This document shows, one piece after another, positions 54,388-64,000 of a stretch of 64,000 nucleotides of DNA. The translations under genes were made by a program, and so were the position numbers. The first letter of the stretch is position 1. Each line of letters starts with the position of its first letter. This DNA comes from Phreatobacter stygius (GTDB lineage: Bacteria; Pseudomonadota; Alphaproteobacteria; Rhizobiales; Phreatobacteraceae). The stretch spans positions 1-64,000 of the forward strand of contig NZ_CP039690.1 of NCBI RefSeq assembly GCF_005144885.1. Reading direction: 5' to 3'. The notes under the pieces were generated by a model. That model ran no database searches, was not told where the DNA came from, and worked only from the letters and a program-made list of their open reading frames with translations.

Positions 54388-56631
54388 ATGCCCACCGTCC
54401 TCGTCCGAGCCCTCGCCTTCACTCTGATGACGCTGTCTCTGGCGACGCTGTCCGCCGTGCCACTGTCGGCCCAGGCCGACCGCGGCCTCGCCTGGAGAAC
54501 CGGCGACGAGGCCCAGGCGATCGAGCGGCGCGTCGAGGCCTTGCTGGCGCGCATGACGCTCGACGAGAAGATCGGCCAGCTCAACCTGACCGGCCGCGGC
54601 GACGGCTTCGATCCTCAGTGGGTGGCGACCGGCCGCTCCGGCGCGGTGATGAATTTCATCGATCCGGCCGAGGTCCGCCGCCTGCAGGATCTGGTCCAGG
54701 CGAGCCGCCTGAAGATCCCGCTGATCATTGGCCTCGACGCGATCCATGGCTTTGCCACCTATTTTCCCCAGCCGATCGGCCAGGCCGCGACCTTCGACCC
54801 GCGCCTGATCGAGCTTGCCGCCTATTGGACCGCCCGGGAATCGCGCGCCGCCGGCGTCAACTGGACCTTCGCGCCGATGGTCGACCTGACCCGCGATCCG
54901 CGCTGGGGCCGGGTCTTCGAGGGCGCCGGCGAAGACGTCCATCTCGCCACCATCGTCGCCGCGGCCCGGGTCCGCGGCTATCACCGCGGTGGGCTTGGCA
55001 CCAGCGTCAAACATTTCGCCGGTTACGGCGAGGCCGAGGCCGGACGCGACTATAACAGCGTCTGGATCCCGCCCTCCAAGCTGCTCGACCTCCACGTGCC
55101 GCCCTTCCTGGCGGCGATCCGCGCCGGCGCCTTCACCGCCATGACCTCGCTCAGCGCCATGAACGGCGTGCCGGCCACCGCCGACCGTCCGCTGCTCACC
55201 GGCCTGCTCAAGGGCCGGCTCGGCTTTCGTGGTTTCGTCGTCTCCGACTTCGCCTCGATCGAGGAGCTGATCAACCACGGCGTCGCCGCCGACGGCGCCG
55301 AAGCGGCGCGCAAGGCCCTGCTCGCCGGCGTCGACATGGACATGTTCTCCGGCCTGTTCATCCGCCATCTCGCCGATGAGGTGCGCGCCGAACGGGTGCC
55401 GGTGGCCGCCATCGACGAGGCGGTCCGGCGGATCCTCCGGGTCAAGTTCCATATGGGCCTGTTCGACGCCCCACCGGTCGACCCGGCGGCAACGGCTGGC
55501 CAGATCACCACCCAGCCGGCGCGCGAGGCGGCCCTCGAGGTCGCGCGCGAGGCCATGGTGCTGCTGAAGAACGACGGCGACATCCTGCCGATCCGTCCCG
55601 ACGTCCGGTCGATCGCCGTCATCGGCGCGCTCGGCATGATCGATGACGACTGGCAATATGGCGACAATGTCGGCCTGCCGCGCATCCGCCGCCCGACCGT
55701 CCAGGGCGAGCTGGCCCGCCAGCTCGGACCGGATGTGAAGATCACCGCCCAGGCCGGGCTGACCACCATTTGCGGCACCGAATTCGCCGATCGCGAAGCC
55801 ACCCTCCGCGCCGCCCGCGAGGCCGACCTGATCGTCGCCGTGCTCGGCGAGGAATGCGAGTTCATGGGCGAAAGCGCCTCACGCACCAGGCTCGACCTGC
55901 CCGGCGTCCAGGGCCAGCTGCTCGACGACCTCATCGCCACCGGCAAGCCGGTGGTGCTGGTGCTGAAGACCGCGCGGCCGCTGGTCCTGACTGATATCGC
56001 GGCGCGCGTGCCGGCGATCATCCAGAGCTTCCATCTGGGATCACAGGGCCGTGTCGCCATTGGCGAAGTGCTGACCGGCCGGGTCAACCCGAGCGGCAAG
56101 CTGCCGATGAGCATGCCGCGTTCGGTTGGCCAGATCCCGGTCTATTACGACCAGTTGCCGACCGGCCGGCCGCTGCGCAAGGGCGAGCGCTACGAGACCT
56201 CCTTCGTCGACGAGCGCAACGAACCGCTGTTTCCCTTCGGTTTCGGCCTCTCCTACACCCGCTTCACGCTTGACGCGCTGACGCTCGACAGCGCCAGCGT
56301 GCCGCTGAACGGCACGATTGCCGGCTCGGTCCGGCTCGCCAATGTCGGCAGCCGCGACGGGCGCGAAGTGGTGCAGGTCTATCTGCGCCAGCGCGTCGGC
56401 TCGCGCTCGCGCCCGCTCCGGCAATTGCGGGCCTTCGACAAGGTGACGCTTGGCGCCGGCGCCAGCCAGACCGTGCGCTTCGCCGTGCCGGTGGAAGCCC
56501 TCGGCTTCCATGACGACCAGGGCCGGCGCCATCTCGAGCCCGGCCTCTACGACGTCTTCGTCGGCACCGATTCGCGCGCCGAACTGACCGCGACCGTGAC
56601 GGTGAGAGGGCGAGTGGCGAATAACGACTAG
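54388..56631 (+). CDS. bglX: Glycoside hydrolase family 3 (beta-glucosidase, BglX-like)
   Basis: 747 aa with signal peptide MPTVLVRALAFTLMTLSLAT ending LSAQA, so periplasmic. GH3 N-domain: FIDPAEVRRLQDLVQASRLK, IIGLDAIHGFATYFPQ, WGRVFEGAGEDVHL, KHFAGYGEAEAGRDYN and VSDFASIEELINHG, in which Asp is the catalytic nucleophile; then the C-domain (ALEVAREAMVLLKNDGDILP, ECEFMGESASRTRLDLPGVQ) and a fibronectin III-like end (VYLRQRVGSRSRPLRQLRAF). It cleaves beta-glucosides or related sugars. No sugar transporter adjacent. The stop adjoins a GAATGGC repeat. Confidence 0.92.
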   Translation: MPTVLVRALAFTLMTLSLATLSAVPLSAQADRGLAWRTGDEAQAIERRVEALLARMTLDEKIGQLNLTGRGDGFDPQWVATGRSGAVMNFIDPAEVRRLQDLVQASRLKIPLIIGLDAIHGFATYFPQPIGQAATFDPRLIELAAYWTARESRAAGVNWTFAPMVDLTRDPRWGRVFEGAGEDVHLATIVAAARVRGYHRGGLGTSVKHFAGYGEAEAGRDYNSVWIPPSKLLDLHVPPFLAAIRAGAFTAMTSLSAMNGVPATADRPLLTGLLKGRLGFRGFVVSDFASIEELINHGVAADGAEAARKALLAGVDMDMFSGLFIRHLADEVRAERVPVAAIDEAVRRILRVKFHMGLFDAPPVDPAATAGQITTQPAREAALEVAREAMVLLKNDGDILPIRPDVRSIAVIGALGMIDDDWQYGDNVGLPRIRRPTVQGELARQLGPDVKITAQAGLTTICGTEFADREATLRAAREADLIVAVLGEECEFMGESASRTRLDLPGVQGQLLDDLIATGKPVVLVLKTARPLVLTDIAARVPAIIQSFHLGSQGRVAIGEVLTGRVNPSGKLPMSMPRSVGQIPVYYDQLPTGRPLRKGERYETSFVDERNEPLFPFGFGLSYTRFTLDALTLDSASVPLNGTIAGSVRLANVGSRDGREVVQVYLRQRVGSRSRPLRQLRAFDKVTLGAGASQTVRFAVPVEALGFHDDQGRRHLEPGLYDVFVGTDSRAELTATVTVRGRVANND

Positions 56632-56922
56632 CGAATGGGGAATGGCGAATGGCGAATGGGGATGATGCGGCGAGCGAAGTGCGCGTAAACCCTCTCCCGC
56701 GAGCGGGAGAGGGTGGCGCCGTCAGGCGCCGGGTGAGGGTCTAAAGCAGCACCCGACCCATCATTTCCGGCGGAAATGCACGGCGCGCGGTGACGCAACC
56801 ACCCTCACCCGGCCGCTCCGCGGCCACCCTCTCCCGCGAAGGCGCGGGCGAGGGTTCGCGCAGCCCTCTTCGCCGGGCTGACGCCTTCCCTACTCGCTAT
56901 TCGCCGCTCGCCATTCGCCCAC
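56632..56922. repeat. REP-like intergenic repeat module
   Basis: 291 bp with nested palindromes: a GAATGGCG run after the bglX stop, the stem CCCTCTCCCGC/GCGGGAGAGGG at 56690-56713, a GGCGCC-GTCA-GGCGCC hairpin, a second CCACCCTCTCCCGCG block near 56823, and an inverted CTATTCGCCGCTCGCCATTC copy near 56893. Similar pieces occur at 38519-38536. Confidence 0.7.
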
Positions 56923-57678
56923 TCACTTGCCCACATTCGACCCCGAATAGGGCGGCGGCGGAATATCCATATGGGCCTTGCGCAGCGCCGCCGACCAGCG
57001 CTCGCGCAGGTCGTGGAAATAGGGCTCGCCCGGCTCGATCCGGTAATTGGTCTCGACCTTCGCCTCGCCGCGCGGCATCACCGCGATGTCGATCGGCATG
57101 CCGACGCCGAGATTGGAGCGCATGGTCGAATCCATCGACACCAGGCCGATCTTCAGGGCGTCGTTGAGGGTGGTGTCGTATTTGATCGCGCGGTCGAGGA
57201 TCGGCTTGCCATATTTGTGCTCGCCGATCTGCAGATAGGGCGTGTCGACCGTGCATTCGATGCAATTGCCCGCAGCATAGATCATGAACAGGCGCAGCCG
57301 CCGCTGGCTGATCTGGCCGCCGAACAGGAACGACGCCTCGAACTTGATGCCGTCCTGGTCGAGGCCGGGACCGTCGAGCGAACGCACCATGCGGATCGCC
57401 CGGCCGACCCGCTGTGCCGCCTGGAACATGGTCGGCGCGTTCATGATCGTCTCGATCTCGCCGGTCTCCTCGTTGCGCAGGCCCTCGTTGAGGAAGCCAA
57501 GCACCGACTGGGTGATCGACAGGTTGCCGGCGGAGGCGAGCGCGATCGCCCGCTCGCCCGGCTTCTCGAACACCTGCAGCTTGCGGAAGGTCGAGATATT
57601 GTCGAGGCCAGCATTGGTGCGGGTGTCGGCGATCATCACCAGACCGTCGCGCACCAGAATGCCGCAGCAATAGGTCAT
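56923..57678 (-). CDS. Anbu: proteasome-related Ntn hydrolase
   Basis: 251 aa. MTYCCGILVRDGLVMIADTR exposes Thr after loss of Met; Asp17 and Lys32 (counted from that Thr) are in place of the proteasome catalytic residues. TNAGLDNISTFRKLQVFEKP and ALASAGNLSITQSVLGFLNE are typical for Anbu (ancestral beta-subunit), which forms open helical rings instead of the closed proteasome barrel. Its proteolytic role is unproven. It is divergent, by 195 bp, from the three partner genes (ATP-grasp, alpha-E, transglutaminase-like) that accompany Anbu in many genomes. Confidence 0.93.
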   Translation of the reverse strand: MTYCCGILVRDGLVMIADTRTNAGLDNISTFRKLQVFEKPGERAIALASAGNLSITQSVLGFLNEGLRNEETGEIETIMNAPTMFQAAQRVGRAIRMVRSLDGPGLDQDGIKFEASFLFGGQISQRRLRLFMIYAAGNCIECTVDTPYLQIGEHKYGKPILDRAIKYDTTLNDALKIGLVSMDSTMRSNLGVGMPIDIAVMPRGEAKVETNYRIEPGEPYFHDLRERWSAALRKAHMDIPPPPYSGSNVGK

Positions 57679-57873
57679 CGGGGTTCTCCAATCGCGATCG
57701 GCATAACCGGCGGGCCTTGCCCACGCAACCGCCCGCCGGAGGCCGTTCGCTGTGCAGATGCGAAAGGCCCCTTCCCTCCGGCGGTATTTTACCGCTAGCT
57801 TGGTCGTCGAAGCATTCAGACCGGTCCGTCAGAGAAAGGCGCTGCTTCGTCTTCCAGAGGGGATCAACTGCGT

Positions 57874-59301
57874 ATGCCGGATGACGTAGCGGCCTTTGAC
57901 GAAATGAACATTGCGGGCGGTGGCGTCCGTCCGGCCTACGAAACTCTGGCGCATTGGCTGAAATCGGTCCCTGAGGGCCTGCTCGAAACCCGGGCCCGCG
58001 AGGCGGAAGCGCTGTTCCGGCGCATCGGCATCACCTTTGCCGTCTATGGCGACGCGGAATCGACCGAGCGGCTGATCCCTTTCGATGTTGTGCCGCGGGT
58101 GCTGACCTATGCCGAGTGGGCGACGCTGTCGGGTGGCCTGACCCAGCGGGTCAAGGCGATCAACGCCTTCCTCAATGACGTCTATGGCCGGCGCGAGATC
58201 TTGCGAGCCGGCATCGTTCCGGAAGACCTGGTCTACCGCAATCCGGCGTTCCGTCCGGAGATGAACCAGCAGCCGGTGCCCCATGGCATCTATGTGATGA
58301 TTGCCGGCATCGACATCGTGCGCGTCGACGGCGACACCTTCTACGTGCTCGAGGACAATGCCCGTACCCCCTCGGGCGTCTCCTACATGCTGGAGAACCG
58401 CGAGGTCATGTTCCGGCTGTTCCCGGAACTGTTCGCCCAGCACCGCGTGGCGCCGGTCGAGAACTATACCGACGACCTGCTGGCGACCTTGAAATCGGTG
58501 GCACCCATTTCGGCTTCCGCCGACCCGACCTGTGTGCTGCTGACGCCCGGCCAGTTCAACTCGGCCTATTACGAGCACACGTTCCTCGCCGACAAGCTGG
58601 GCGTCGAACTGGTCGAGGGCCGCGACCTCTTCGTCAAGGGCGACATCGTCTACATGCGCACCACCCAGGGGCCGAAGCGGGTCGACGTGATCTATCGCCG
58701 CCTCGACGACGAGTTCCTCGACCCGCTCACCTTCCGGCCCGATTCGGCGCTCGGCGTGCCCGGCCTGATCTCGGCCTATCACCACGGCAATGTGACGCTC
58801 GCCAATGCGGTCGGCACCGGGGTTGCCGACGACAAGGCGGTCTACAGCTACATGCCGGAGATCGTGAAATTCTATCTCGGCGAGGAGCCGATCCTGAAGA
58901 ACGTGCCGACCTTCCGCTGCCGTGAGGCCGACGGGCTCGGCTACGTGCTCGACAACCTGAAAGACCTGGTGGTCAAGGAAGTCCATGGGTCCGGCGGCTA
59001 CGGCATGCTGATCGGGCCGAAGGCGACCAGCGCCGAGATCGAGATCTTCCGCCAGAAGCTCAAGAAGGACCCGGAGAACTTCATCGCCCAGCCGACCTTG
59101 GCGCTGTCGACCTGTCCGACGCTGGTCGAGGAAGGCGTCGCGCCGCGCCATGTCGACCTCAGGCCCTTCGTGCTGACCGGTCGCGACAAGGTGCGCATCG
59201 TGCCGGGGGGATTGACCCGCGTCGCGCTGAAACAGGGCTCGCTCGTGGTCAATTCCAGCCAGGGCGGTGGCACCAAGGACACCTGGGTATTGGATTGCTG
59301 A
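57874..59301 (+). CDS. Circularly permuted ATP-grasp protein of the Anbu cluster
   Basis: 475 aa, family COG2308 (DUF404/DUF407). Conserved: GITFAVYGDAESTERLIPFD, NAFLNDVYGRREILRAGIVP, GIDIVRVDGDTFYVLEDNAR, LTPGQFNSAYYEHTFLADKL, and the ATP-grasp KEVHGSGGYGMLIGPKATS loop near the C-terminal side, as expected after circular permutation. It is thought to make peptide-type bonds, but substrate unknown. First of three genes with 9 and 120 bp gaps. Confidence 0.92.
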   Translation: MPDDVAAFDEMNIAGGGVRPAYETLAHWLKSVPEGLLETRAREAEALFRRIGITFAVYGDAESTERLIPFDVVPRVLTYAEWATLSGGLTQRVKAINAFLNDVYGRREILRAGIVPEDLVYRNPAFRPEMNQQPVPHGIYVMIAGIDIVRVDGDTFYVLEDNARTPSGVSYMLENREVMFRLFPELFAQHRVAPVENYTDDLLATLKSVAPISASADPTCVLLTPGQFNSAYYEHTFLADKLGVELVEGRDLFVKGDIVYMRTTQGPKRVDVIYRRLDDEFLDPLTFRPDSALGVPGLISAYHHGNVTLANAVGTGVADDKAVYSYMPEIVKFYLGEEPILKNVPTFRCREADGLGYVLDNLKDLVVKEVHGSGGYGMLIGPKATSAEIEIFRQKLKKDPENFIAQPTLALSTCPTLVEEGVAPRHVDLRPFVLTGRDKVRIVPGGLTRVALKQGSLVVNSSQGGGTKDTWVLDC

Positions 59302-59310
59302 GGTCTCAGG

Positions 59311-60255
59311 ATGCTGTCCCGCACCGCCGATAACCTGTTCTGGCTCGCCCGCTATGTCGAGCGCGCCGAATATCTCGCCCGCATCATCGAAGCCTCGACC
59401 AGGCTCGCCAATCTGCCCTCGGCCTATGCCGGCTCGTCGAATGAATGGGAATCGGCGGTCGCCACCGCCGGCTGCGCGCCGCTGTTCTACCAGAACTACG
59501 ACAAGGCGACGCGCGAGACGGTGATCGATTTCCTGGCCTTTTCGCCGGACAATCCCTCCTCGATCCGCTCCTGTTTCGAGGTCGCCCGCACCAATGCCCG
59601 CTCGGTGCGCACCGCGCTGACCATGGACATGTGGGACGCGATCAATTCGGCCTGGCTCGATCTCGGCAAATACCGCGCGAGCAACCTGAAGCAGGACGAA
59701 CAGCTCGGCGGCTTCCTGTCCTTCGTCAAGGAAACCGGCCTGCGCTTCGACGGCTCGGCCTACCGGACCATGCTCCGGAGCGACGGCTACTGGTTCTCGC
59801 GGCTGGGCGTGATGATCGAACGTGCCGACAACACCGCCCGCATCCTCGACGTCAAATATCATGTGCTGCTGCCCGACGCCGAACATATCGGCGGCTCGCT
59901 CGACTATTTCCAATGGTCGGCGATCCTGCGCGCGGTGTCGGCACTGACCGCCTATCACTGGGTCTACAAGGAGAGCCTCAAACCCTGGCTGGTCGCCGAT
60001 CTGCTGATCCTCAACGACCAGATGCCGCGCTCGCTCGCCGCCTGTTACGAGAGCCTGGTGCGCAATCTCGACAGTCTCTCGCTCGCTTATGGCCGCCAGG
60101 GCCCGGCCCAGCGAGCGGCCCGCGCCATCCGCACCAAGCTCGAAAACGCCCGCATCGACGACGTCTTCCAGTCGGGCCTGCACGAGTTCGTGTCCGACTT
60201 CATTGCCGACAACAACCGGCTTGGCGCCGCGATCACCCAGCAATACCTGACCTGA
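59311..60255 (+). CDS. Alpha-E domain protein (DUF403) of the Anbu cluster
   Basis: 314 aa, all-helical. MLSRTADNLFWLARYVERAE is the family start, with FEVARTNARSVRTALTMDMW, RSDGYWFSRLGVMIERADNT and the C-terminal RNLDSLSLAYGRQG. Family COG2307; the role is unknown, though it always accompanies the ATP-grasp protein, to which it may be a partner. 9 bp after the ATP-grasp stop. Confidence 0.92.
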   Translation: MLSRTADNLFWLARYVERAEYLARIIEASTRLANLPSAYAGSSNEWESAVATAGCAPLFYQNYDKATRETVIDFLAFSPDNPSSIRSCFEVARTNARSVRTALTMDMWDAINSAWLDLGKYRASNLKQDEQLGGFLSFVKETGLRFDGSAYRTMLRSDGYWFSRLGVMIERADNTARILDVKYHVLLPDAEHIGGSLDYFQWSAILRAVSALTAYHWVYKESLKPWLVADLLILNDQMPRSLAACYESLVRNLDSLSLAYGRQGPAQRAARAIRTKLENARIDDVFQSGLHEFVSDFIADNNRLGAAITQQYLT

Positions 60256-60375
60256 GGGCGCGCGCGGCGCCGGCCGCCGCGCCTGTTCATATCCGGCCAG
60301 CGCATATTGACAGGCAGGGCGGCGGTCCCATCCTTCGACCCGTCCCCTCGAGAATCGACCAGCAAGGCCCCGATC

Positions 60376-61203
60376 ATGCGCATCCGCATCGCACATGAGA
60401 CCATCTACAGCTATGGCACGCCGGCCCAGGCGGTGATCCAGACGCTGCGCCTGACGCCGCGCAATTTCAGCGGCCAGCATGTCGCGAAATGGCGCATCGA
60501 GGTCGACCAGGACTGCCGCCTGGACGCCCATGAGGACGCCTTCGGCAACATCACCCATACCTTTTCGGCGACCGGCCCGATCGAGCGGCTGGCGGTCAGG
60601 GTCGAAGGCCTGGTCGAGACCACCGACACGGCCGGCGTCGTGCGCGGCTCGGTCGAGCGCTTCCCGCCCGGCCTGTTCCTGCGCGAGACCGACCTGACCC
60701 GTGCCGACGACGCGGTGCGCGGCTATGCCACCGAACGCCAGGCCGCCGCCGGCGGCGAGAGGCTCGCCACCCTCCATGCCCTGATGGACGGGCTTTACGA
60801 GGACATGCAGTTCGACAAGGACCCGACCCATTCCGCCACCACCGCGGCGGAAGCATTCCACTTGAAGCGCGGCGTCTGCCAGGACTTCGCCCATATCTTC
60901 ATCGCCGCGGCCCGCCACCTGGCGATCCCGGCGCGCTATATCGGCGGCTATTTCCTGCATGACGACGGCACCGTCGACCAGGAAGCGGGACATGCCTGGG
61001 CCGAAGCTTATGTCGACGGCCTCGGCTGGGTCAGCTTCGATCCCGCCAACAATGTCTGCCCGACGGAAGCCCATATCCGCATCGCCGCCGGCCTCGACTA
61101 TCTCAACGCCGCCCCGGTGCGCGGCACCCGTTATGGCGGCGACGGCGAGCACCTGTCGGTCAAGGTGCAGGTCGACCAGGCCGCGCGTCAGGTCCAGAGC
61201 TGA
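60376..61203 (+). CDS. Transglutaminase-like peptidase of the Anbu cluster
   Basis: 275 aa, COG1305 type with an N-terminal beta domain (MRIRIAHETIYSYGTPAQAV, TLRLTPRNFSGQHVAKW). The triad is Cys in FHLKRGVCQDFAHIFIAAAR, His in AGHAWAEAYVDGLGWVSFDP and Asp in the same stretch. No signal peptide, so cytosolic. Probably cleaves or transfers amide bonds made by the ATP-grasp protein. Start ATG 60376 fits the family start; 120 bp after the alpha-E stop. Confidence 0.92.
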   Translation: MRIRIAHETIYSYGTPAQAVIQTLRLTPRNFSGQHVAKWRIEVDQDCRLDAHEDAFGNITHTFSATGPIERLAVRVEGLVETTDTAGVVRGSVERFPPGLFLRETDLTRADDAVRGYATERQAAAGGERLATLHALMDGLYEDMQFDKDPTHSATTAAEAFHLKRGVCQDFAHIFIAAARHLAIPARYIGGYFLHDDGTVDQEAGHAWAEAYVDGLGWVSFDPANNVCPTEAHIRIAAGLDYLNAAPVRGTRYGGDGEHLSVKVQVDQAARQVQS

Positions 61204-61288
61204 CGCGCAATCTTGAACGTGCAGTCGTGCCGGCGCGGGCGTAAGACAGAGCGGCCACCGCCCGAACGCCAGCCTGCCGGAGACCCGC

Positions 61289-62053
61289 ATGCCCGAGACC
61301 GTCACAGCCGCCATCCTCGTCATTGGCGACGAGATCCTGTCCGGCCGGACCAAGGACAAGAATATCGGCTATATCGCCGAATATCTGACCGCTATCGGCA
61401 TCGACACGAAAGAAGTCCGCGTCGTTCCCGACGAGGAGGACGAGATCGTTGCCGCGCTGAACACGCTGCGCGCCAAATTCAATTATGTCTTCACCACAGG
61501 CGGCATCGGCCCGACCCATGACGACATCACCGCCGACGCGGTCGCCAAGGCTTTCGGCGTGTCGATCGATGTCGACCCGCGCGCCCGCGCCCTGCTGCTG
61601 GAGCGGATCCCGGAAAAGGACCTGAACGAGGCGCGGCTCAGGATGGCGCGCATCCCGGCCGGCGCCGACATCGTCGAAAATTCGGTCTCCAAGGCGCCCG
61701 GCTTCATGCTCGGCAATGTCATCACCATGGCCGGCGTGCCGGCGATCATGCAGGTCATGCTCGACGCCGTGGCGCCGAAGCTGAAGACCGGCGCCAAGAT
61801 GCTGCAGGTGACCATCGAGGCGGCCGGCCTGAAGGAAGGCGATATCGGCACGCCCTATGGCGTCATCGCCAAGGCCCATCCCGGCGTCATCATGGGCAGC
61901 TACCCGATGATGAACGACAAGGGCTTCTATACCCGCCTCGTCCTGCGCGCCAAGGACCCGGCCTTGCTGGCGCCGGCCGAGGCCGCGGTGACCGCCATGG
62001 TCGCCGCCTACAAGCCGGCCGGCTCCGAAATCCTCATCACCAGGGGGGCTTGA
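61289..62053 (+). CDS. Molybdopterin-binding (CinA N-terminal-like) protein
   Basis: 254 aa starting MPETVTAAILVIGDEILSGR. ILSGRTKDKNIGYIAEYLT, FTTGGIGPTHDDITADAVAK and KAPGFMLGNVITMAGVPAIM are the MoCF_biosynth domain shared by CinA and MoeA. The CinA nicotinamide mononucleotide deamidase domain is absent, so this is a short member. Role unknown: nucleotide pyrophosphatase-type activity has been reported for CinA N-domains. 85 bp downstream of the Anbu cluster, same direction. Confidence 0.9.
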   Translation: MPETVTAAILVIGDEILSGRTKDKNIGYIAEYLTAIGIDTKEVRVVPDEEDEIVAALNTLRAKFNYVFTTGGIGPTHDDITADAVAKAFGVSIDVDPRARALLLERIPEKDLNEARLRMARIPAGADIVENSVSKAPGFMLGNVITMAGVPAIMQVMLDAVAPKLKTGAKMLQVTIEAAGLKEGDIGTPYGVIAKAHPGVIMGSYPMMNDKGFYTRLVLRAKDPALLAPAEAAVTAMVAAYKPAGSEILITRGA

Positions 62054-62165: not shown

Positions 62166-62660
62166 ATGGCCACGCCGAACCCAGACAAAGCCTTTCCCGT
62201 TTCCTGGGATCAGTTCCACCGCGATGCCCGGGCGCTGGCCTGGCGCCTCGCCGGCCAGGGGCCGTTCCGGGCGATCGTCTGCATCACCCGCGGCGGCCTG
62301 GTGCCGGCAGCCATCGTGACGCGCGAGATCGGCATCCGGCTGATCGAGACGGTCTGCATCGCCAGCTACCACGACTACCAGAACCAGGGTCAGCTGCAGG
62401 TCATCAAGACCATCGCGCCGGACCTGCTGGCCGATCGCGGCGAAGGCATCCTGGTGGTCGACGACCTCGTCGACACCGGCAAGACCGCCAAGGTGGTGCG
62501 CGACATGCTGCCCAAGGCCCATATCGCCACCGTCTATGCCAAGCCGCAAGGGCGCCCGCTGGTCGACACCTTCGTCACCGAGGTGTCGCAGGACACCTGG
62601 ATCTATTTCCCCTGGGACATGGGCTATACGTTCCAGCCGCCGATCCGCGACGGCGCCTGA
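62166..62660 (+). CDS. gpt: Xanthine phosphoribosyltransferase
   Basis: 164 aa. The PRPP motif is [20 protein letters not shown]; the N-terminal part has [39 protein letters not shown], the C-terminal [15 protein letters not shown]. This matches the Gpt family of purine salvage that converts xanthine and guanine to the nucleotides. Stand-alone gene; normal length. Confidence 0.93.
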
Positions 62661-62718: not shown

Positions 62719-63411
62719 TCAGAACTCCAGACGGGGTGACGCTGGGCCGAGGACCGCGATCTTTGGCGCGCTCGACCAGATGGCGTCGAGCTCGTCCGCC
62801 AGCGCCGCCATCAGCTTGCCGACATCCTGCCCCGCCGAGGCGTGCAGCGCCTCCGCGACGATCAGCACGGCCTTGGTGTCGTCGCGAACCGCCGACGTGC
62901 CGCTCTGCCGGTTGGTCCAGCGCCGGGCATGAGCCCTGTCGGCACCGTCGGCGAAAATGACCTCCCCGGCTTCGGGATGCTCGATTTCGCCGGCGAAGGT
63001 CAGATAGGTCTCCTGGCCGCCGGCATGGCGAACCTCGAGATGATCGGCGATGTGGGCGACATCGAACACGGCGATCGGAATGGCAAAGGCCATCGAGACC
63101 GCGTTGCACAGGTCGATCAGCGGATGGATCCGCGGCAGCGCCTTGTCCTGCCGGAAGCGCCTGAGCAGTTGCTCCGAGGCGCAGCGATATTGCGTCGGCT
63201 TCAGCCCCATCTTCGAAAAGGCCCGCCGCCAGGCCTGGATCTCCGGCAGTTCGCTTTCCGGCCCCGCGGCGAGGCGTGATTGCGCTGTCGTGTTGAACTT
63301 GCCGATGCGACTTTCGACCGAAACATCCCGGCCAATCCCGGCGGCGAACAATGCGCCGGCGGCGAGCTCGGGAAATGCCGTCCAGATCTCAGGTGAATGG
63401 CCGAAATGCAT
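62719..63411 (-). CDS. B3/4 domain protein
   Basis: 230 aa. SKMGLKPTQYRCASEQLLRR and PRIHPLIDLCNAVSMAFAIP, FADGADRAHARRWTNRQSGT are typical of the free-standing B3/4 domain, which in phenylalanyl-tRNA synthetase beta chain edits Tyr. Stand-alone members are thought to act in trans or on free amino acids; role unproven. Convergent with gpt. No other tRNA-related gene here. Confidence 0.87.
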   Translation of the reverse strand: MHFGHSPEIWTAFPELAAGALFAAGIGRDVSVESRIGKFNTTAQSRLAAGPESELPEIQAWRRAFSKMGLKPTQYRCASEQLLRRFRQDKALPRIHPLIDLCNAVSMAFAIPIAVFDVAHIADHLEVRHAGGQETYLTFAGEIEHPEAGEVIFADGADRAHARRWTNRQSGTSAVRDDTKAVLIVAEALHASAGQDVGKLMAALADELDAIWSSAPKIAVLGPASPRLEF

Positions 63412-63492: not shown

Positions 63493-63846
63493 TCAGTCTT
63501 GAACGGAATTGCAGGGCGAAGCGCAATCCTGGAACGCGATCGACACCTCGATGCCCCGCTTCGCCCTGGCCTCTGCGAACAGCCGGCCGATGTTCGACAA
63601 GAGGGTCCGAACCGGCTCGGGGCGACCGCCGGCATGGCTGACCACGATGTGAAACGGCGGCTGGACGCCGTTGATAAGGCATGCCGGGTCCGGCCCGAGC
63701 CGCTGCGCGGCGCCTTCGGTCACCGTATCCCACAGCGCATCCAGGTTGCGGCCATGCCAGCCGGGCGCCTGGAGCGCCGCCAGAACAGCGGAATAGACAT
63801 CGTCTTCGGTTCGCCATTCGCTGGCGTCGAGCGCGATCCGGCGCAT
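63493..63846 (-). CDS. Barstar-family protein
   Basis: 117 aa from MRRIALDASEWRTEDDVYSA. QAPGWHGRNLDALWDTVTEG is the barstar core with the helix that plugs the barnase active site; the end (GRLFAEARAKRGIEVSIAF) fits too. Barstar inhibits secreted ribonucleases; without a barnase gene in view it may defend against a neighbour's toxin. The start at 63846 follows an AGGAGG-like site (CCGGAGGACCG). Confidence 0.82.
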   Translation of the reverse strand: MRRIALDASEWRTEDDVYSAVLAALQAPGWHGRNLDALWDTVTEGAAQRLGPDPACLINGVQPPFHIVVSHAGGRPEPVRTLLSNIGRLFAEARAKRGIEVSIAFQDCASPCNSVQD

Positions 63847-63905
63847 GGCGTCGGTCCTCCGGCCGGCAAGACCATGGCGGAACGCGCCGCCGATGACGAG
63901 CCGCG

Positions 63906-64000
63906 CTAACGCCGGCCCCACATGGCGATCCTGAGGCTCGCCGTGCCGAGCCCATCCTCGATGGCCACGCCGACGCGGCGGCCTTCGGTGCCGAACAGCC
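63906..64000 (-). CDS. C-terminal end of an unidentified protein (cut by window edge)
   Basis: The last 31 codons, ending VAIEDGLGTASLRIAMWGRR at a TAG (63906-63908), are visible and continue to the right of base 64000. The stop is 59 bp ahead of the barstar start, so they may share a transcript. Not recognisable. Confidence 0.5.
   Translation of the reverse strand, partial: LFGTEGRRVGVAIEDGLGTASLRIAMWGRR

Follow-up and report, generated by a model that had tools for sequence, protein, structure and literature searches.

A layout variant of the Anbu gene set in Phreatobacter stygius

Results

We examined an Anbu locus in the first 64,000 nucleotides of the Phreatobacter stygius genome (contig NZ_CP039690.1; this whole stretch is hereafter called the window), in which the gene for the proteasome-like protein Anbu is accompanied by genes of the ATP-grasp, alpha-E and transglutaminase-like (TG) families. 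We found that the locus is the known Anbu gene set rather than the canonical operon, that is, a layout variant of a known set of genes. It shares with the Anbu operon (PMC5666114, PMC6376114) the four families, the Anbu residues Thr1, Asp17 and Lys32, and the order ATP-grasp–alpha-E–TG. In the operon anbu is the last gene and is codirectional with the others, whereas in P. stygius it precedes the block and is encoded on the other strand. As an overall explanation we favour, with moderate confidence, a standard Anbu set whose block was inverted in the ancestor of the genus, and which would consist of a ligase core and a detachable Anbu hydrolase.

Four Anbu-associated families in one locus

The preliminary description of this DNA had reported all four Anbu-associated families, and the open reading frames and the Pfam and phmmer identities agreed with this at each position (Table 1); judged by sequence, chance is excluded as the source of the observation, the genes being long and homologous. 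The gene content of the Anbu operon is therefore complete in the window. Not all four genes are codirectional in the conserved order: anbu is divergent, and the other three keep their order. The gaps that had been described, 195 bp between anbu and the ATP-grasp gene and 85 bp between the TG gene and a CinA-like gene (61204–61288), were borne out by the sequence. For the TG gene the ATG at 60376 was taken as the start; a TTG further upstream, at 60307, is likewise open.

Residues 2–244 of the 251 residues of Anbu aligned to the solved Anbu 5loy (phmmer, E = 5e-82), and 5nyj was matched at E = 2.2e-73. This near-full-length homology, which includes the C-terminal region, and the presence of Thr1, Asp17 and Lys32(33) place the protein in the Anbu family; a Pfam scan reached the general Proteasome family alone (28 bits, cut-off 22.4). 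The three residues, earlier described as intact, were present in 150 of 150 aligned proteins (the window protein and 149 from the order), with no loss seen. P. stygius Anbu has proteasome-like homology in common with HslV and 20S beta subunits, and differs from them in that it belongs by sequence to the Anbu subfamily and that no AAA+ domain was found in the 10 neighbouring proteins scanned.

The ATP-grasp protein matched CP_ATPgrasp_2 (Pfam, E = 5.7e-165) and the solved relative 3n6x (E = 2.7e-204), which identifies a circularly permuted ATP-grasp domain and suggests an amide ligase function. The alpha-E protein (Pfam, E = 1e-94) was aligned with 54 of 132 full-length proteins chosen at a 72% identity cut. 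The resulting 55 proteins had 24 invariant positions, E17-R18 and E170-R171 among them, which may together form one site. A confident AlphaFold2 model of alpha-E was all helical (predicted local distance difference test 91.8, predicted template modelling score 0.90). Foldseek compared this model with the PDB and gave no match at E ≤ 0.001 among 240 matches at E ≤ 10, the best 50 of the 240 being listed; a structural match may have been overlooked. The alpha-E sequence had no match in the PDB at E ≤ 1. The TG protein carries Bact_transglu_N and Transglut_core domains. Its motifs GVCQDFAH, GHAWAEAY and DPAN start at residues 166, 205 and 222, with DPAN at the edge of the Transglut_core match (127–223), and provide the Cys-His-Asp triad of the transglutaminase-like superfamily, the catalytic residues being presumably those within GVCQDFAH, GHAW and DPAN.

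When the window was compared with five congeners, the ratio of non-synonymous to synonymous substitution rates (dN/dS, NG86) was 0.12–0.19 for anbu, 0.12–0.15 for ATP-grasp, 0.09–0.13 for alpha-E, 0.26–0.32 for TG, 0.21–0.28 for the CinA-like gene and 0.37–0.44 for the neighbouring GH3 gene. These low values indicate purifying selection on the set since the rearrangement.

Codirectional loci prevail in relatives

Phreatobacter is assigned to the Hyphomicrobiales, and the sample of this order comprised 249 genomes including P. stygius. Anbu was present in 161 of them at 163 places, two genomes having two matches; G108 and G161 gave weak Anbu matches only. Of the 162 Anbu places outside the window we retrieved the 149 that were listed, taking about 8 kb of flanking sequence in either direction unless a contig ended sooner. 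An ATP-grasp gene was in view in 133 of these regions, codirectional with anbu in 121, divergent in 11 and convergent in 1; among the 16 regions that showed none, some were cut by contig ends. The divergent regions were those of eight Phreatobacter congeners together with L071, L140 and L188, which come from two other families (genomes G120, G079 and G114). Among the genes looked for, ATP-grasp and alpha-E were adjacent on the same strand in 132 of the 133 regions, the exception being L134. Past the ATP-grasp gene, 22 of the 121 codirectional regions had a CinA-like gene pointing away, with a gene for xanthine phosphoribosyltransferase (XPRT) behind it in 21, within the 8 kb view.

A set of 80 named loci gave a similar arrangement in 63, which were codirectional with ATP-grasp and had CinA and XPRT (30), CinA alone (3), neither (29) or a SlyX match beyond anbu (1); these layouts leave aside matches obtained with the queries for GH3, abhydrolase, B3/4 and barstar. 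The remainder were one locus with TG and alpha-E followed by the contig end, one Phreatobacter record, and 15 loci without ATP-grasp in view, some of them on short contigs, of which four keep CinA and XPRT near anbu.

In the phylum sample (349 genomes), Anbu places were joined to ATP-grasp places within 12 kb. Outside the window there were 120 Anbu places; 13 had ATP-grasp elsewhere only and 19 had none among the matches listed, which left 88 that could be assessed. Of these, 83 were codirectional, 2 divergent (G337 and G507, both with alpha-E behind ATP-grasp) and 2 convergent, and in 1 ATP-grasp lay downstream on the same strand. In neither divergent region of this sample (L291, L292) did the TG queries detect a TG gene. 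We also observed a convergent arrangement of anbu and the ATP-grasp block in L293, anbu far from the block in L297 and L298, and two ATP-grasp–alpha-E sets, one on either side of anbu, in L294.

The divergent order is rare, yet it occurs in several lineages. Conservation of the gene neighbourhood, as supposed in the preliminary description, thus held for the four-gene set, which travels with Anbu (ATP-grasp family in 118 of the 120 Anbu genomes of the phylum sample, paralogues included), and did not hold for the divergent order, found in only 11 of 133 order regions and 2 of 88 phylum places. The gene order of the Anbu operon is described as conserved (PMC6376114), and no description of a divergent layout was found in the covered literature on Anbu and its partner families, subscription papers lying mostly outside that coverage.

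A probable inversion in Phreatobacter

In every congener whose anbu and ATP-grasp genes share a contig (eight of eight), two genes stand between them on the anbu strand, which we take to be trhO (UPF0176_N and Rhodanese families) and slyX. The pair lies upstream of ATP-grasp in nine of nine congeners, the ninth (L296) having anbu on another contig, and further reading frames stand in the gap of some congeners. The sole Phreatobacter record among the 80 named loci likewise reads anbu-slyX-trhO-ATP-grasp; the closest named match to the window locus is L194, a Phreatobacter metagenome-assembled genome (89%). The genus order is anbu(−) [slyX(−) trhO(−)] ATP-grasp(+) alpha-E(+) TG(+) cinA(+) XPRT(+), and parsimony suggests the ancestral order anbu(−) TG(−) alpha-E(−) ATP-grasp(−) cinA(+) XPRT(+).

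Those relatives whose codirectional operon faces CinA–XPRT point to an inversion as the simplest history. In the Phreatobacter ancestor the block ATP-grasp–alpha-E–TG would have been turned round where it stood, between anbu and cinA; the new junction would then have come to hold trhO and slyX, and P. stygius would subsequently have lost both from it. In the tree P. stygius and G065 were sisters (support 98) and the genus was separated from the outgroups (100). Since the sister G065 retains the trhO-slyX pair, we interpret the 195-bp adjacency as having arisen secondarily, by loss of the pair. At 4.71 Mb the P. stygius genome has a trhO-slyX pair, which may be relocated or separate. Inversion is very probably the mechanism of the divergent layout, which looks like a lineage quirk.

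The intergenic region and the CinA-like gene

The preliminary description had suggested a shared bidirectional promoter, and the divergent layout could on that account be a regulatory design that couples Anbu to its partners. The start codons of anbu and ATP-grasp are indeed 195 bp apart in P. stygius, and short divergent gaps occur elsewhere (197 bp in G337 and 207 bp in G507; about 125 bp in L140 and about 160 bp in L188 between match ends). However, trhO and slyX intervene in all eight one-contig congeners, so that a bidirectional promoter serving both genes is not a conserved feature. Conservation was also one-sided: across nine aligned sequences (the window and eight congeners), about 120 bp upstream of ATP-grasp were conserved, and the region upstream of anbu was not conserved past its GGAGA. 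A conserved divergent promoter was rejected on these two grounds. With L071 divergent yet having about 5.2 kb between anbu and ATP-grasp, and with most relatives codirectional, we regard the regulatory design as improbable.

The core of the conserved block, GAAAGNCCC, was found upstream of ATP-grasp in the eight congeners and in none of 124 other regions. As a regulon motif, GAAAGSCCCCTTCCCT was discarded: with up to two mismatches it occurred at four places in the P. stygius genome, compared with three for the reversed control. A second exact copy of GAAAGSCCCCTTCCCT at 4.21 Mb showed no link to the system by translation, the flanking frames there not having been searched against a library. 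A sigma70 scan, informative only for promoters like those of Escherichia coli, found 0 sites against 0.9 expected.

The CinA-like gene had been put forward as a possible fifth member of the system. In P. stygius it follows TG by 85 bp on the same strand, and in four of nine congeners by 122–211 bp between match ends; in these five genomes nothing lies between the two genes, and co-transcription is possible there. Among the 121 codirectional order regions, 22 also have a CinA-like gene close to the operon. Against membership, the gene was present in 231 of the 249 order genomes at much the same frequency with Anbu (151 of 161) as without it (80 of 88; Fisher p = 0.45), which shows no co-occurrence beyond background. 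Measured between match ends, TG and cinA are 122–1952 bp apart in the nine congeners, and in five of them (L162, L163, L164, L165 and L167) an opposite-strand gene intervenes, which in L163 belongs to the 3-dmu-9_3-mt family and in the other four is represented by similar reading frames. Moreover, in the usual layout the CinA-like gene points away from the operon, and its usual partner is XPRT, including at loci without the ATP-grasp block. Because it is equally common without Anbu and is split off in five of nine congeners, fifth membership was dismissed as very improbable, and the gene is probably an old neighbour with XPRT as its usual partner. Separately, seven Anbu genomes of one genus (family f18, genus g59: G064, G100, G159, G183, G206, G226, G245) had no CinA-like match.

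Coordinates and flanking elements

Table 1. Features of the P. stygius Anbu locus, in window positions
Feature	Coordinates	Strand	Basis
anbu, proteasome-like N-terminal nucleophile (Ntn) hydrolase subunit, 251 amino acids	56923..57678	-	phmmer to 5loy/5nyj
Intergenic region between anbu and ATP-grasp in P. stygius, 195 bp	57679..57873	.	read off the sequence
Conserved block upstream of the ATP-grasp gene, putative promoter	57757..57873	+	alignment of nine Phreatobacter sequences
Circularly permuted ATP-grasp protein, 475 amino acids, predicted amide ligase	57874..59301	+	Pfam PF14403/PF04174, 3n6x
alpha-E protein, 314 amino acids, two invariant Glu-Arg pairs	59311..60255	+	Pfam PF04168
Transglutaminase-like (TG) protein, 275 amino acids	60376..61203	+	Pfam PF08379 and PF01841; solved relative 3isr
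CinA-like (MoCF/FLAD1_M) gene, probably a long-standing neighbour outside the system	61289..62053	+	MoCF_biosynth and FLAD1_M
Xanthine phosphoribosyltransferase (XPRT), usual companion of the CinA-like gene	62166..62660	+	NCBIfam NF006613, 256 bits, cut-off 138

Between the GH3 gene and anbu (56631–56918) the window carries an interspersed repeat of about 300 bp, partly self-complementary and with inverted GCGAATGG-type ends. It had at least 88 matches in the genome, a single contig of 7,354,671 bp; these come from scoring 40 of 173 first-look candidates, and one copy may count on both strands. Almost all matches fell at 5.1–7.3 Mb and 0–1.05 Mb, with one place at 2.6 Mb. Downstream, a gene for a Barstar-family protein (63493–63921) stands near a B3/4-domain gene (62719–63411).

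Discussion

Of the earlier interpretation, the complete four-gene set, the intact residues and the co-conservation with Anbu stand, while conserved divergence, a shared promoter and CinA membership do not. As to what the set may do, the ATP-grasp and alpha-E proteins would together act as an amide ligase, making peptide or isopeptide bonds via an acyl-phosphate, and its product would be removed or recycled by two further enzymes, the cysteine enzyme of the TG-like family and the Ntn hydrolase Anbu, probably during nitrogen limitation. Anbu would be a detachable hydrolase, and the ligase core to which it is added is also found on its own. We infer a core with an optional Anbu because ATP-grasp and alpha-E are adjacent in 132 of 133 regions, because the two are fused in an Anbu-less cluster, and because of the co-occurrence counts: in the phylum sample Anbu occurred without the ATP-grasp family in 2 of 120 genomes, and the ATP-grasp family without Anbu in 65 of 183, where the search also catches the Anbu-less paralogue. 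That paralogue lies in the P. stygius genome at about 1.194–1.201 Mb (L158:4295–11030), in a cluster of a TG-DUF2126 amidoligase, a fused ATP-grasp–alpha-E protein and a second TG. The cluster has the ATP-grasp, alpha-E and TG families in common with the Anbu set, and its fused paralogue retains 17 of the 24 invariant alpha-E residues; it differs in the fusion, in the added DUF2126 amidoligase and in having no Anbu.

Several reports are in line with a ligase/hydrolase cycle. In Yersinia, the ATP-grasp protein encoded by the operon released inorganic phosphate from ATP (PMC6376114), and Anbu was upregulated in nitrogen-limited Pseudomonas putida and unchanged under various other conditions (PMC5666114). 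NtrC and sigma54 are required by a DUF404/407–DUF403–TG cluster in whose listing Anbu does not appear; the NtrC-dependent I35_5080-83 cluster of Burkholderia cenocepacia is listed with a content similar to that of the Anbu-less P. stygius cluster (PMC5491218). Correlation ties these domains to urea metabolism (PMC3597751). We regard the cycle of ATP-grasp/alpha-E, TG and Anbu as tentative, its probability falling slightly short of even. A more specific form, in which alpha-E has an unrecognised helical fold with a conserved Arg/Glu-rich site, its two Glu-Arg pairs recurring in the ATP-grasp-fused paralogue, and makes up a two-component amide ligase with ATP-grasp, and in which Anbu is a hydrolase module split off and re-coupled several times, is possible and rather less probable.

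Several points weigh against the favoured explanation. We know of no substrate or ligation product of the Anbu system. Sigma54-type sites were not outstanding: the window had 22 matches against 24.6 expected, with none in the 195-bp gap, and the surroundings of the second, Anbu-less cluster had 7 against 6.0. As to the history, anbu may have moved while the block stayed, which would give an identical order. In the available part of PMC6376114, the Anbu proteins tested had no peptidase or amidase activity and the operon proteins showed no specific interactions. Two other functions were weighed. Anbu could be a classical self-compartmentalised protease with the ligase and TG genes as unrelated neighbours, in keeping with its intact Thr1, Asp17 and Lys32, the weak Proteasome match and the homology of the family to HslV and 20S beta subunits (PMC8665760); the presence of the ATP-grasp family in nearly every Anbu genome (118 of 120), the lack of an AAA+ domain in the neighbouring proteins scanned and the reported lack of peptidase activity in vitro (PMC6376114) make this a poor candidate. 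Alternatively, Anbu might strip a tag added by ATP-grasp/alpha-E, as a deubiquitinase does, rather than degrade the tagged protein. This hypothesis is attributed to Iyer et al. 2009 by PMC6376114, and the 65 genomes with the ATP-grasp family and no Anbu are as expected of an optional remover. However, no tag is known, and the small S1 pocket of Anbu (PMC6376114) may fit small products equally well; we consider tag removal unlikely, though clearly less so than the protease.

For the ligase core with a detachable Anbu, the survey indicates what travels together, namely ATP-grasp with alpha-E and then TG, and what is optional and mobile, namely Anbu. It weakens the CinA-like gene and the divergent promoter as clues to Anbu function, and makes the ligase core the first target for experiments.

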